A DNA stretch of 64,000 bases, taken from NCBI RefSeq assembly GCF_015712165.1, contig NZ_JADPZX010000001.1:1550001-1614000 (forward strand), read 5' to 3'. The stretch comes from Streptomyces spinoverrucosus. Its GTDB lineage: Bacteria > Actinomycetota > Actinomycetes > Streptomycetales > Streptomycetaceae. How positions within the stretch are numbered: position 1 is the first letter of the stretch; each line of letters opens with the position of its first letter. Below, in pieces: positions 52,172-64,000 of this stretch. Both the position numbers and the translations under genes were made by a program. A model generated the notes under the pieces. That model did not search any database, was not told the DNA's origin, and was given only the letters and a program-made list of their open reading frames with translations.

Positions 52172-52239
52172 CCCGGGGTACGGCGGCTGTGGCGCCCTGC
52201 GGCGAAAGGCCCGCGCGCACCGGGAAAACCGCACGCCGA

Positions 52240-52275
52240 CAGGGGTGGTGCTGCGCCGACACGGCACCACCCCTG
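52240..52275 (+). terminator. Hairpin terminator after the acyl-CoA dehydrogenase gene
   Basis: An 11-bp perfect stem (CAGGGGTGGTG/CACCACCCCTG) with a 14-nt loop. The 346-bp gap up to the GAF regulator otherwise holds the palindrome listed next and a TTGACA hexamer at about 52475. Confidence 0.72.
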
Positions 52276-52354
52276 CCCCTGCAGGCCCGTTGAGGCCATG
52301 CGCGCCGCACGGGCGACGTCGCTCAAGTTTCAAACACCGGGGGAGGTTCACCAG

Positions 52355-55919: not shown

Positions 55920-56003
55920 ATGTCTGGAACTGGAATTGCCTTGGTGAGTCGGCGGCACGTCGACCTCGGCCGCATGTCCAGCGCCATCTGTCCGGCGAGC
56001 TGA
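55920..56003 (+). CDS. Cysteine-type leader peptide (RRHVDL family), 27 aa
   Basis: The frame encodes 27 residues and contains LVSRRHVDLGRMSSAIC, the signature of the small leader peptides found before sulfur-assimilation genes in many actinobacteria. Its single Cys (residue 24, codon TGT at 55989) lies four codons before the stop. It ends 126 bp before sirA. Known cysteine-linked actinobacterial leader frames suggest that translation of the Cys codon reports cysteine supply and sets expression of the operon. That mechanism is established for some mycobacterial examples and is inferred here. Confidence 0.85.
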   Translation: MSGTGIALVSRRHVDLGRMSSAICPAS

Positions 56004-60210: not shown

Positions 60211-61566
60211 ATGACCAGCACCACCGAACCCACCGAGACGCTGTCGGTCGAGCAGTTGTCGGCGACCACCCTGCTGCGGTTCGCCACCGCGGGGTCGGTC
60301 GACGACGGCAAGTCCACCCTGGTCGGCCGCCTGCTGCACGACTCCAAGTCGGTCCTCGTCGACCAGTTGGAGGCCGTGGAGCGCGCCTCGGCTTCGCGGG
60401 GGCAGGACGCTCCCGACCTGGCGCTGCTGACGGACGGCCTGCGCGCCGAGCGCGAGCAGGGCATCACCATCGACGTCGCCTACCGCTACTTCGCCACCCC
60501 GCGGCGCCGGTTCATCCTCGCCGACACGCCGGGACACGTGCAGTACACCCGCAACATGGTCACCGGCGCGTCGACGGCCGAGCTGACGGTCATCCTCGTC
60601 GACGCCCGCAACGGCGTGGTCGAGCAGACCCGCCGGCACGCCGCGATCGCCGCCCTGCTGCGCGTCCCGCACGTGGTGCTCGCGGTGAACAAGATGGACC
60701 TCGTCGGGTACGAGGAGAACGTCTTCGGCGCGATCGCCGAGGAGTTCACCGCGTACGCCACCGAACTCGGCGTCCCCGAGGTCACCGCGATCCCGATCTC
60801 CGCGCTCAACGGCGACAACGTCGTGGAACCGTCCGCGCACATGGACTGGTACGGCGGCCCCACCGTCCTGGAACACCTGGAAACCGTGCCGGTGAGCCAC
60901 GACCTGGCGCACTGCCACGCCCGCCTGCCCGTGCAGTACGTGATCCGGCCGCAGACCGCCGAGCACCCCGACTACCGGGGCTACGCGGGCCAGATCGCCG
61001 CCGGCACCTTCCGCGTCGGCGAGCAGATCACCGTCCTGCCGTCCGGCCGTTCCACGAAGATCTCCGGGATCGACCTGCTGGGCGAGCCGGTCGACGTCGC
61101 CTGGACCACGCAGTCGGTCACCCTCCTGCTGGAGGACGACATCGACATCTCGCGCGGCGACCTGATCGTGCCGAGCAAGGACGCGCCGCCGACCACCCAG
61201 GACATCGAGGCGACCGTCTGCCACGTGGCGGACCAGCCGCTGACCGTCGGTCACCGGGTGCTGCTCAAGCACGGCACCCGCACGGTCAAGGCGATCGTCA
61301 AGGACATCCCGTCCCGGCTCACCCTCGACGACCTGTCCCTGCACCCGCACCCGGGACAGCTCGTCGCCAACGACATCGGCCGGGTGAAGGTCCGCACCGC
61401 CGAGCCGCTGCCGGTCGACTCCTACTCCGACTCCCGGCGCACCGGTTCGTTCATCCTGATCGACCCCAGCGACGGCACCACGCTCACCGCGGGCATGGTC
61501 GGCGAGTCGTTCGCCTCCCCGGAGCCGGTCCGGGACGAGGCCGAGGACGACGGGTGGGACTTCTGA
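60211..61566 (+). CDS. cysN: Sulfate adenylyltransferase subunit 1 (GTPase)
   Basis: The protein has 451 residues. The GTPase motifs are GSVDDGKST (28-36), DTPGH (105-109) and NKMD (160-163), followed by two EF-Tu-like beta-barrels. It hydrolyses GTP to drive APS formation by CysD. No APS kinase domain is fused; cysC is separate. It ends the first sulfur block. Confidence 0.95.
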   Translation: MTSTTEPTETLSVEQLSATTLLRFATAGSVDDGKSTLVGRLLHDSKSVLVDQLEAVERASASRGQDAPDLALLTDGLRAEREQGITIDVAYRYFATPRRRFILADTPGHVQYTRNMVTGASTAELTVILVDARNGVVEQTRRHAAIAALLRVPHVVLAVNKMDLVGYEENVFGAIAEEFTAYATELGVPEVTAIPISALNGDNVVEPSAHMDWYGGPTVLEHLETVPVSHDLAHCHARLPVQYVIRPQTAEHPDYRGYAGQIAAGTFRVGEQITVLPSGRSTKISGIDLLGEPVDVAWTTQSVTLLLEDDIDISRGDLIVPSKDAPPTTQDIEATVCHVADQPLTVGHRVLLKHGTRTVKAIVKDIPSRLTLDDLSLHPHPGQLVANDIGRVKVRTAEPLPVDSYSDSRRTGSFILIDPSDGTTLTAGMVGESFASPEPVRDEAEDDGWDF

Positions 61567-61660
61567 ACATGACCTCGACCGACTTCTACTCGTCGTTCGC
61601 GAAGGAGGGCGGCCGCGTCGGCAGCGGCGCCCTCGGCAGCGGGCAGGGCGGAGTGGCGCG

Positions 61661-61813
61661 ATGTGTGGCGTGATGCCCGCGATGTGTGCGCTGACGTACG
61701 CGCCCCGCGCACGGACCTGTGCGCCTCGTGCGCGGACCTACGCGCCTCGTGCGCGGACCTACGCCCCTTGCGCGCGCCGCCGAAAACCCGCCGACCTCCC
61801 GGCCACGACCTGA
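61661..61813 (+). CDS. Cys/Met-rich leader frame upstream of ssuA (50 aa, candidate)
   Basis: GGAG sits 7 nt before the ATG, good spacing. The frame begins MCGVMPAMCALTYAPRAR and continues with repeats of a seven-residue unit (T[C/Y]APRAR). It holds Cys at 2, 9, 20 and 37 and Met at 1, 5 and 8, seven sulfur residues in 50. It ends 39 bp before ssuA, inside a hairpin. No homolog is known to me. A sensor of Cys/Met supply, by analogy with the RRHVDL leader in front of sirA, is inference. A 34-codon frame right after cysN (61569-61673) overlaps its start and could be a rival, but has no distinctive content. Confidence 0.45.
   Translation: MCGVMPAMCALTYAPRARTCAPRARTYAPRARTYAPCARRRKPADLPATT
61692..61775 (+). 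repeat. 21-bp tandem repeat, four units
   Basis: Units start at 61692 (diverged), 61713, 61734 and 61755; the second and third differ by only 2 bases (GGACCTACGCGCCTCGTGCG type). The period equals seven codons, so the overlapping leader frame stays open in each copy. Confidence 0.75.
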
Positions 61814-61850
61814 GGTGTCGTGACCGCCGGGCCACCGAGAGGAACACCTC
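61798..61850 (+). promoter_or_regulatory. Competing hairpins before ssuA
   Basis: Hairpin A: CCCGGCCACGAC pairs with GTCGTG-acc-GCCGGG (61798-61831), with the leader-frame stop TGA in its loop. Hairpin B: GAGGTGT (61812-61818) pairs with ACACCTC (61844-61850), enclosing the ssuA Shine-Dalgarno GAGAGGA. They share bases and cannot form together. Confidence 0.5.
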
Positions 61851-61852
61851 CC

Positions 61853-62959
61853 GTGCCTGCCACCACCGTCCTGCGCCGCGGTCTCGCGGCGATGGCCGCG
61901 CTCCCCCTCCTCGCGCTCGCCGCCTGCGGCTACGGCTCCCAGGCCAAGGACGACGACACCGTCAAGGTCGCCGCCGGGGCGAAGAAGATCGACGGTCTGG
62001 ACTCCGTCCGGATCGGCTACTTCGGCAACCTCACCCACGCCACCGCGCTGGTCGGCCGGCAGCAGGGCTTCTTCCAGAAGGAACTCGGCGCCACCAAGGC
62101 CCAGTACGCCACCTTCAACGCCGGACCCTCCGAGATCGAGGCCCTCAACTCGGGCTCCATCGACATCGGCTGGATCGGTCCGTCCCCGGCGATCAACGGT
62201 TACCTGAAGTCGGGCGGCAAGAATCTGCGGATCATCGGCGGTTCGGCGTCGGGCGGTGTGAAGCTCGTGGTCAACCCCGAGAAGATCAAGTCTCTGAAGG
62301 ACGTCAAGGGCAAGCGGATCGCCACCCCACAGCTCGGAAACACGCAGGACGTGGCGTTTCTGAACTGGATCGCCGAGCAGGGCTGGAAGGTCGACGCGCA
62401 GAGCGGCGAGGGCGACGTCTCCGTGATCCGCACCGACAACAAGGTGACCCCGGACGCCTACAAGTCGGGGTCCGTCGACGGCGCATGGGTGCCCGAGCCG
62501 ACCGCGTCGAAGCTGGTCGCCGAGGGCGCGAAGGTACTGCTCGACGAGTCGACGCTGTGGCCGGAGCAGCAGTTCGTGATCACGAACGTCATCGTCTCGC
62601 AGAGCTTCCTCAAGGAGCACCCCAAGGCCGTCGAGGCGGTGCTGCGGGCGTCCGTCGAGACCAACAAATGGATCAACGCCAACCCCGGTAAGGCGAAGAC
62701 GGCGGCGAACCAGCAGCTCCAGGTGGACACCGGAAAGCCGCTCCCGGCCGACGTGCTGGACCCGGCGTGGAAGTCGATCCGGATCACCGACGACCCCCTG
62801 GCGGCCACCTTCGACACCCAGGCGGAGCACGCGGTGAAGGCGGGGCTGCTGGAGCAGTCCGACCTGAAGGGCATCTACGACCTCACGCCGCTCAACAAGA
62901 TCCTCGCCGCCGAGGGCGAGGCCACCGTCGGCGACGCCGGCCTCGGCGCCGCTTCGTGA
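61853..62959 (+). CDS. ssuA: Sulfonate/aliphatic sulfur ABC transporter substrate-binding lipoprotein
   Basis: The protein has 368 residues from a GTG behind GAGAGGA. The lipobox is LAAC (C25). The mature part is of the SsuA/TauA/NMT1 type: VRIGYFGNLTHATALVG, LNSGSIDIGWIGPSPAING and GKRIATPQLGNTQDVAF. It should bind sulfonates or a related anion and deliver it to the ATPase and permease that follow. The sulfur context supports sulfonate or sulfate-ester uptake; the exact ligand is open. Confidence 0.88.
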   Translation: MPATTVLRRGLAAMAALPLLALAACGYGSQAKDDDTVKVAAGAKKIDGLDSVRIGYFGNLTHATALVGRQQGFFQKELGATKAQYATFNAGPSEIEALNSGSIDIGWIGPSPAINGYLKSGGKNLRIIGGSASGGVKLVVNPEKIKSLKDVKGKRIATPQLGNTQDVAFLNWIAEQGWKVDAQSGEGDVSVIRTDNKVTPDAYKSGSVDGAWVPEPTASKLVAEGAKVLLDESTLWPEQQFVITNVIVSQSFLKEHPKAVEAVLRASVETNKWINANPGKAKTAANQQLQVDTGKPLPADVLDPAWKSIRITDDPLAATFDTQAEHAVKAGLLEQSDLKGIYDLTPLNKILAAEGEATVGDAGLGAAS

Positions 62960-62983
62960 GGCCCTGATGAATTTCCGGACAAG

Positions 62984-63019
62984 TGCCCAGATGACTGCCC
63001 AGATGACTGCCCAGTTGAG
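62984..63019 (+). repeat. 12-bp tandem repeat, three units
   Basis: TGCCCAGATGAC is repeated twice, followed by a diverged third copy (TGCCCAGTTGAG), in the ssuA-ssuB gap. It ends just before the ssuB ribosome site and may alter its spacing or folding. Confidence 0.7.
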
Positions 63020-63037
63020 TTCCAGGAGGTGACGACC

Positions 63038-63826
63038 ATGGCCACGACCTTCGCCAAGGCCGCCGACGCCGGTACGTCGGTGGAGCACGCCGCGCGCATC
63101 GAGCATGTCTCGAAGTCCTTCGCCGGCCCAGCCGGGCAGCAGCTCGTCCTCGACGACATCACGCTCGATGTCGCGCCCGGCGAGTTCGTCACCCTCCTGG
63201 GGGCCTCGGGCTGCGGCAAGTCCACGCTGCTGAACCTGGTGGCGGGGCTCGACAAGCCGTCGTCCGGCGCGATCTCGACGGACGGCCGTCCGGCGCTGAT
63301 GTTCCAGGAGCACGCCCTCTTCCCGTGGCTGACCGCGGGCAAGAACATCGAGCTGGCCCTGAAGCTGCGCGGTGTGCCCAAGGGCGACCGGCGCGGCCGG
63401 GCGGAGGAACTGCTGGAGCTGGTCCGGCTCCAGGGGGCGTACGGAAAGCGCGTCCACGAACTCTCCGGCGGTATGCGGCAGCGGGTGGCGATGGCCCGTG
63501 CGCTCGCGCAGGACAGCAAGCTGCTGCTGATGGACGAGCCGTTCGCGGCGCTGGACGCGATCACCCGCGACGTGCTGCACGACGAGCTGACCCGGATCTG
63601 GAACGAGACGCAGCTGTCGGTGCTGTTCGTGACGCACAACGTGCGCGAGGCGGTGCGGCTCGCGCAGCGCGTCGTGCTGCTGTCGTCGCGTCCGGGACGG
63701 ATCGCGCGCCAGTGGACGGTCGACATCCCGCAGCCGCGCCGCATCGAGGACGCCGCGGTGGCGGAACTGTCCCGTGAGATCACCGAGGAACTGCGTGGGG
63801 AGATCCGCCGCCATGGCCAGCACTGA
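63038..63826 (+). CDS. ssuB: Sulfonate ABC transporter ATP-binding protein
   Basis: The protein has 262 residues from the ATG at 63038; AGGAGG ends 9 bp upstream, which argues against the GTG at 63029. Walker A is GASGCGKST (55-63), the signature LSGGMRQR (142-149) and Walker B LLLMDEP (162-168), with FVTHN as the switch region. It powers the importer. Its end overlaps the permease gene by 14 bp. Confidence 0.92.
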   Translation: MATTFAKAADAGTSVEHAARIEHVSKSFAGPAGQQLVLDDITLDVAPGEFVTLLGASGCGKSTLLNLVAGLDKPSSGAISTDGRPALMFQEHALFPWLTAGKNIELALKLRGVPKGDRRGRAEELLELVRLQGAYGKRVHELSGGMRQRVAMARALAQDSKLLLMDEPFAALDAITRDVLHDELTRIWNETQLSVLFVTHNVREAVRLAQRVVLLSSRPGRIARQWTVDIPQPRRIEDAAVAELSREITEELRGEIRRHGQH

Positions 63827-64000
63827 CACGCCCGCCGTCAAGAACGTCAAGGACGGCAAGGACGGCCACGACCTGGCCGGCCTCGAGGCGGGCCTGGACG
63901 CCCTGGAGACGGTGCACACCGGGCGTACGCCGCTGCGCACGACGTTCACGCAGAAGATCGTGCCGCCGGTCACCGCCATCCTGCTGGTGCTGGCGGTGTG
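63813..64000 (+). CDS. ssuC: Sulfonate ABC transporter permease (5' part only)
   Basis: The frame begins with an ATG at 63813 inside the end of ssuB and is open to the window edge (62 codons). It has a charged, Lys/Asp-rich N-terminal tail of about 45 residues and the start of the first membrane helix (IVPPVTAILLVLAV). The identity follows from position, with only a small part visible. Confidence 0.75.
   Translation, partial: MASTDTPAVKNVKDGKDGHDLAGLEAGLDALETVHTGRTPLRTTFTQKIVPPVTAILLVLAV

Follow-up and report, generated by a model that had tools for sequence, protein, structure and literature searches.

A candidate cysteine-responsive leader of two overlapping short frames between cysN and ssuA in Streptomyces and relatives

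The cysN-ssuA gap and the loci compared

The sulfur gene cluster studied here lies in a stretch of 64,000 nucleotides (the window) from Streptomyces spinoverrucosus, the genome of which comprises 8.85 Mb. Its open reading frames follow one another in the order cysI, cysH, cysC, cysD, cysN, gap, ssuA, ssuB and ssuC (cys and ssu names by homology, together with the S. coelicolor gene order in PMC4991794). As far as the accessible part of PMC4991794 goes, the counterpart position in the S. coelicolor cluster is SCO6097-SCO6096, assigned by gene order only. The gap measures 286 nt, from the stop of cysN (sulfate adenylyltransferase subunit 1; 60211-61566, forward strand) at 61566 to the start of ssuA (sulfonate-binding lipoprotein; 61853-62959, forward strand) at 61853. 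The probable GTG start of ssuA was chosen for its ribosome site (GAGAGG, 61837-61842, forward strand, conserved) and for the lipoprotein signal, a longer version from the GTG at 61820 being also possible. Two overlapping short frames, here called uORF1 and uORF2, lie in the gap. No terminator-like site was returned by a scan of 61500-61900 of the window, and no Rfam hit at gathering scores fell inside the gap; the sole Rfam hit in the window at these scores was Scr6106 (RF02827), a Streptomyces small RNA, at 52236-52319 on the minus strand. An open frame of more than 790 codons on the minus strand (61586-64000) spans the gap and ssuA-ssuB and is probably a by-product of high G+C content.

An ssuA query starting at GTG 61853 found matches in 284 of the 295 genomes of the genus. 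The gaps compared came from 89 genomes of the genus (window included), which are the best-scoring ssuA matches listed and not a random draw (90 places besides duplicates, with L062 lacking an upstream cysN), and from 20 divergent loci, 20 from a profile search and 20 chosen by place; further material consisted of 9 cysN ends (7 from genomes without a profile match) and 80 named records. Within the genus, the alignment revealed strong conservation of the gap, mostly 200-300 nt long, and the C-terminal part of cysN was 74-100% identical across the loci compared. Counts out of 127 refer to a table that requires the pattern GGV-x-R-C, so that Arg and Cys are present in these loci partly by selection; the table leaves out L021, L062, L064, L088, L116 and L136 (without the pattern), the duplicates L001, L093 and L094, and the unrelated L002. 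All 80 named loci are Streptomyces. They are the best 80 of at least 478 confirmed stretches, and some of their species may also be among the 127; the search patterns lay in the middle of uORF1, but the ranking used similarity over the whole peptide, so that the Cys count of this set is partly selected. A query including cysN matched in 394 of 394 cases and is uninformative on the leader.

Two overlapping frames with conserved cysteine codons

uORF1 (61569-61673, forward strand) has 34 codons in the window (MTSTDFYSSFAKEGGRVGSGALGSGQGGVARCVA followed by a stop). The distance between the cysN stop and its start ranges from -1 to +5 nt in 125 of the 127 loci (two lack a resolved distance), and GGGTGGGA, within the end of cysN (61552-61559, forward strand) and conserved in the alignment, is its probable ribosome site. 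At most loci the peptide follows the consensus M(variable)-F-A-K-E-G-G-R-V/I-G-S-G-x-L-G-S-G-Q-G-G-V-x-R-C-(V/A)-x-stop. Over 21 codons and 102 distinct sequences, pN/pS was 0.28 in this frame, whereas the two alternative frames gave 1.44 and 2.38; for comparison, a value of 0.78 was obtained over the final 40 codons of cysN. Judged by these ratios, uORF1 encodes a peptide under purifying selection, in one frame only. Neither its consensus nor that of uORF2, nor the uORF2 of the window, matched a Pfam or NCBIfam model.

A profile of uORF1 matched 37 of 47 chosen genomes of the family, covering 13 of the 17 Streptomycetaceae genera sampled, as a rule with one match per genome. In a class-wide draw of 246 genomes, matches were found in 21 of the genus and in one outside the family, a draw that is weak evidence for absence because at most 32 candidates were scored per genome and one genome of the genus (G133) was missed. 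The weak match outside the family (G634, E 7.9e-5) was taken as chance, since no such gap occurs there. The Cys codon of uORF1, TGT in the window (61662-61664, forward strand) and third before the stop, is kept in 80 of 80 named loci (the best 80 of at least 478 confirmed stretches) and also at all 16 profile-matched loci L151-L166. Downstream on the same strand, ssuA was found at 143 of 143 uORF1-bearing loci checked (the 127 and L151-L166), and also at L168-L170. On these comparisons, uORF1 is the more conserved part of the putative leader, and of the cysteine signals the Cys codon near its C-terminus is the more widespread; an earlier sequence-only reading of this DNA had missed it and had taken uORF2 for the whole device. 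At three loci (L010, L041 and L048), uORF1 is extended in frame by inserts of roughly 27-30 nt (e.g., GWGCPRTEFGGGQ) with the Cys end retained, and L116 has a similar insert inside a degenerate uORF1. In Streptomyces, a possible hairpin GTGCGC/GCGCAC around the stop of uORF1 was not counted, as by eye its left arm varies and its right arm is unchanged.

uORF2 (61661-61813, forward strand) overlaps uORF1 by 13 nt and begins within its Arg-Cys codons: CGA-TGT, read in uORF1, supplies the ATG-TG of the uORF2 start. The Arg codon before the Cys is CGA at 125 of the 127 loci and CGG at 2, and CGA makes up 4.7% of the 2603 Arg codons of cysN at the same loci. A codon choice also marks the uORF2 ribosome site (GGAG, 61650-61653, forward strand, 7 nt before the ATG), where the Gly codon of uORF1 is GGA (72) or GGG (50) at 122 of 127 loci, the two together accounting for 18.6% of the 2870 Gly codons in cysN of the same loci. 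Since GGG or GGA is also found at 96 of 127 loci in the other uORF1 Gly, three codons earlier, this bias is not unique to the uORF2 ribosome site; what is special to it is the excess of GGA (72 versus 9 at the earlier Gly). Codon 2 of uORF2 (61664-61666, forward strand) reads TGT or TGC in 125 of the 127 loci and TAC in the other 2. In the named set (best 80 of at least 478), CGA and GGA/GGG were each present in 80 of 80, and codon 2 was TGT or TGC in 79 and TGG in one; all these codon tests ignore relatedness among the loci. By comparison, the start of uORF2 and its Cys codon 2 are kept. Both frames are probably translated, as the selection on uORF1 and the codon choices suggest.

The sequence-only reading had described uORF2 as a 50-codon frame that opens with MCGVMPAMC behind a GGAG and holds seven Cys/Met residues, and this description is accurate (four Cys and three Met, start included). 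Beyond codon 2, the Cys/Met-rich character did not hold: pN/pS was 1.27 near the start (lower in the other frames, 0.49 and 0.63) and 0.81 near the end, values that show no constraint on the peptide, and the length of the frame and its extra Cys and Met codons stem largely from copies of a 21-nt repeat. A tandem repeat of 4.3 copies (61686-61776, forward strand) lengthens uORF2 and is, by eye, absent from L004, the nearest by ssuA identity (90%) among the matches listed, in which the frame has 28 codons; a second tandem stretch of 21-nt period lies at 61657-61702. As 21 is a multiple of three, the openness of uORF2 and its extra Cys/Met codons are weak evidence by themselves. Among the 119 loci with the stop in hairpin D (see below), uORF2 has 23 different lengths between 17 and 91 codons, and at L134, which was not scored for stop placement, it has 13. 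In the 127-locus table, uORF1 mostly has one Cys codon near its end and uORF2 one or two, rarely more, and neither frame has a run of Cys codons as in cysteine attenuators. One locus of genus g8 (L130) has extra Cys codons in both frames that look like local duplications (uORF1 ends with RCAQCVRCAR and a stop, uORF2 begins with MCAVCAVCAI).

Hairpins D and E, the stop of uORF2, and variation among relatives

In the window, the stop of uORF2 (TGA, 61811-61813) lies in the loop of a strong hairpin, D (61798-61831, forward strand), as the sequence-only reading had observed; its folding energy is -18.7 kcal/mol (z -3.03, 1 of 200 shuffles as good). In 46 diverse sequences, 91.5% of its cells are paired, compared with 18-46% when the hairpin is slid, and both sides have changed in 6 of the 10 pairs, a count for which the structure was named from the window's own fold and the controls leave relatedness in; none of 500 shuffles reached the pairing percentage or the covariation score. 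Over 124 loci, the mean z is -2.29, and 99 of them lie within the best 5% of their own shuffles. RNAalifold recovered only 3 pairs of D in one run and none in another. Folding and covariation taken together indicate that D is a real structure holding the uORF2 stop.

The main reading developed below rests on the placement of this stop, which is inside D at 119 of the 127 loci, the remaining 8 being not scorable (5 with no hairpin called, 3 with no ribosome site called). By automatic call, 87 of the 119 stops are within 2 nt of the apical loop and 26 are wholly unpaired in it; the distance from the stop to the ssuA start is 37-41 nt at 77 of the 127 loci and 28-29 nt at 11. Of 110 genus rows, 97 share one phase from the uORF2 ATG to D and 11 have another; in 2 it was not found. 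The right arm of D often contains a second TGA, which catches out-of-phase frames (e.g., L020, L036 and L091), so that part of the agreement in stop placement is due to the sequence of D itself. What the sequence-only reading had proposed, a leader frame upstream of ssuA, is borne out among relatives as to its start, its Cys codon 2 and its stop in a covarying hairpin; the outcome named as refuting it, loss of the frame and stems that do not covary, did not come about for D.

The same comparison failed for the second hairpin (61812-61850) that had been thought to compete with D. Its pairing (61812-61818 with 61844-61850) exists in the window, but with z -1.01 and 23 of 200 shuffles as good. 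When G-U pairs were accepted and the register near the stop was left free, a counterpart with 6 or more of the 7 pairs was found at only 6 of 124 loci, window included. A small hairpin, E (CGAGAGG-AACA-CCTCCCG; 61836-61853, forward strand), takes in the ribosome site of ssuA together with the first base of the start codon; it is paired in 98.2% of cells in the 46 sequences and is almost invariant, so that it yields no covariation evidence. An extended ssuA hairpin, formed by the right arm of D and the ssuA start (mean -15.0 versus -7.9 kcal/mol), was better by at least 3 kcal/mol at 106 of 122 loci but failed the shuffle control, in which z averaged 0.32 and 7 of 111 loci came within the best 5%. 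Mutually exclusive conserved structures of the trp type were not found, D being conserved and both tested alternatives having failed.

Genera g14 (Kitasatospora, we guess) and g11 have no D of the Streptomyces kind and show another hairpin (GACAGGG.../...CCCTGTC), inside which, by folds and by eye, the stop of uORF1 itself is located at 11 of 12 loci. Seven of these stops are in the apical loop, two at the loop edge (L152 and L153) and two elsewhere in the hairpin (L134 and L162); at the twelfth locus, L171, it is at the hairpin foot. Two g3 genomes are without uORF2, and their uORF1 ends with QCRATGC or DCRGTGC before the stop, i.e., with an extra Cys codon; in g4, uORF1 ends with GDCPR. uORF1 is deleted at L168, which retains uORF2 (MCALTRVPRMRAAALEPADSPATT followed by a stop), D and ssuA, and no proper uORF1 is present at L169 and L170, in which codon 2 of uORF2 encodes Phe and Ser, respectively, and the frame still ends inside a hairpin. 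Neither frame is recognisable at L021 and L088.

The cysN ends of all 10 genomes that the profile did not match were inspected. Six loci (L172-L174 and L176-L178) have ssuA after cysN yet no element; it is also absent at two cysN loci without an adjoining ssuA (L167 and L175), and at L179 neither ssuA nor the element was seen. At L167 (G049), an apparent remnant of the ssuA start was noticed by eye between cysN and the next gene (which we take to be CbiX-like), the leader having gone along with ssuA. Three loci of genus g5 (L176, L177 and L178) have no uORFs; near the start of their cysN-ssuA gap, TTTT was seen by eye after a hairpin (e.g., GCGGGT...ACCCGC), resembling an intrinsic terminator.

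Proposed action, rival explanations and known systems

We give about an even chance to the reading that, in Streptomyces and most of the relatives sampled, the gap between cysN and ssuA serves as a leader within the sulfur operon that is translated and probably responds to cysteine. Ribosomes that end cysN would initiate uORF1, the last codons of which (Arg-Cys-x-(x)-stop) overlap the Met-Cys start of uORF2; uORF2 ends within D, just upstream of the ssuA ribosome site in E. Whether D is folded, and with it how well ssuA is translated or read through, would depend on where the ribosome stands, held near the Cys codons of the overlap or having reached the uORF2 stop. With enough cysteine, a ribosome would stand at the stop and D would be unfolded; with cysteine short, it would wait near the overlap and D would fold. 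Low cysteine would thus be expected to leave D folded and to raise ssuA, a direction that is physiologically sensible. We infer from the sequences that cysteinyl-tRNA would be sensed, that D would act on ssuA and that control would run in this direction.

In favour of a leader we count the purifying selection on uORF1, the codon choices that serve a uORF2 start, the retention of Cys codons in each of two frames within a sulfur operon, the uORF2 stop inside D at so many different frame lengths, the compensatory changes in D, the uORF1 stop in a hairpin of its own in g14 and g11, the extra Cys codon of uORF1 in the two g3 genomes without uORF2, and the association with ssuA, present at all 143 loci checked, the element being absent at the two cysN loci without it. 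Against it we count the small number of Cys codons (as a rule one or two in a frame, where the polycysteine leaders of mycobacteria have more), the second TGA often present in D, the GGG/GGA bias at another uORF1 Gly, the Phe and Ser codons of L169 and L170, the six ssuA loci without the element, the lack of a conserved competing structure and of a terminator-like site in the gap of the window, and the constraint on the uORF1 peptide, which is unusual for a plain amino-acid attenuator. In the accessible part of PMC4991794, S. coelicolor RNA rises 16.56 fold for ssuA and 15.03 fold for cysN under oxidative stress, a similarity that argues against strong termination in the gap under this stress. 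The constraint on uORF1 suggests that more than codon counting may be involved, possibly arrest by the nascent chain or a small protein. One tentative extension, which we rate as a long way from probable, would make uORF1 the founder of a new family of arrest peptides: under cysteine or thiol stress, the chain would stall at the C-terminal Cys codon and hold or free the uORF2 start, and uORF2 would report to ssuA through the ribosome reaching the stop in D. If true, this would be a two-step relay in which a single stretch of RNA bears the Cys codons of two frames.

In a rival explanation, the sulfur operon would encode uORF1 as a true small protein (Gly-rich, 34 residues, with a C-terminal Arg-Cys) acting in trans, and uORF2 and the hairpins would only space translation and couple it to ssuA. 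Amino-acid selection at the observed pN/pS speaks for this, as leader peptides usually keep their sensing codons only, and so does the one match per genome as a rule. We think this unlikely, in view of the 13-nt overlap with codon choices that serve uORF2, of ssuA following next at every locus checked, of the deletion of uORF1 at L168 while uORF2, D and ssuA remain, and of the lack of a known domain in Pfam and NCBIfam. Similarly doubtful is constitutive coupling, in which the frames would carry ribosomes over the gap, exclude Rho and open structure before ssuA with no sensing of cysteine. The closeness of the uORF1 start to the cysN stop and the overlap with uORF2 fit such coupling, as do the parallel rise of ssuA and cysN RNA and, in the accessible part of PMC4833913, the proposal that reinitiation after leader frames raises translation in Actinobacteria; the uORF2 stop and the ssuA start are however 37-41 nt apart at 77 of the 127 loci and 28-29 nt at 11, compared with a peak at 10-11 bp in that source, the Cys codons are kept in both frames, and a stop within a covarying hairpin exceeds what simple coupling needs.

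That D is a terminator or processing hairpin without a U-tract, or a DNA operator, with the frames incidental, seems to us very unlikely. D is a strong inverted repeat, and the three g5 genomes without uORFs have a hairpin with TTTT in the same gap (by eye); the scan, however, returned no terminator-like site in the window, the arms of D vary between genera with pairing kept, which speaks against a fixed operator sequence, and uORF2 retains its start, its Cys codon and its stop. The sequence-only reading in its exact form, a 50-codon Cys/Met-rich peptide with a switch between 61798-61831 and 61812-61850, has both pairings in the window in its favour; with the second pairing at so few loci, not beyond shuffles, and the extra Cys/Met codons within tandem repeats, we consider it scarcely credible.

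As far as the accessible parts of the sources go, regulation of the cys cluster is treated in PMC4340878 and PMC4991794, and the reannotation of S. lividans (PMC8079986) lists eight leader peptides, none of them for ssu or cysN. No published description of a cysN-ssuA leader was found in the open-access literature; subscription papers could hold one. Mycobacterial polycysteine attenuators were reportedly described by Canestrari et al. in 2020 (as cited in PMC13236596), with "leaderless" in the title. The accessible portions of other sources give candidate cysteine leader peptides in Mycobacterium, Propionibacterium acnes and Bifidobacterium longum (PMC1262725), Cys-rich uORFs of mycobacteria (PMC4633059) and the mycobacterial ilvB1 attenuator (PMC13236596). 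Cysteine attenuation as described so far in these sources is mycobacterial. The leader proposed here, which would probably let the cell tune sulfur uptake to cysteine supply, is a family-wide candidate inside a well-studied cluster. It combines a conserved peptide that no Pfam or NCBIfam model matches, a pair of overlapping frames that each carry Cys codons, and a hairpin supported by covariation.

With the mycobacterial cysteine uORFs it shares short frames, Cys codons near the stop, a position upstream of sulfur genes and the actinobacterial host; those uORFs have runs of Cys codons and, in the accessible part of PMC1262725, no conserved terminator-type hairpin in Mycobacterium. In contrast, the proposed leader consists of two overlapping frames between genes, each mostly holding one or two Cys codons; one of its peptides is under constraint, and its hairpin, which covaries, holds a stop. 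Attenuators of the trp type have a leader frame with an upstream sensing codon and a stop codon placed in a structural switch; the frame, the sensing codon upstream and the stop placed in a structure are alike here, but no conserved alternative structure or terminator-like site was found. Arrest-peptide translational attenuators have a conserved peptide directly before the control point, and so does the present locus with uORF1 (pN/pS 0.28), although stalling here is only a proposal and the uORF1 consensus matches no Pfam or NCBIfam model. The same gene cluster encodes, before cysI near 55950 (forward strand), the peptide VSRRHVDLGRMSSAICPAS followed by a stop, which we take to be the RRHVDL-type putative leader peptide of Streptomyces sulfur genes; it is unrelated in sequence and stands at the operon start and not between genes. 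The kind of leader is known from the mycobacterial cysteine uORF attenuators, whereas the arrangement and the peptide family are new, and the conserved, unexplained peptide of uORF1 is the most interesting part.
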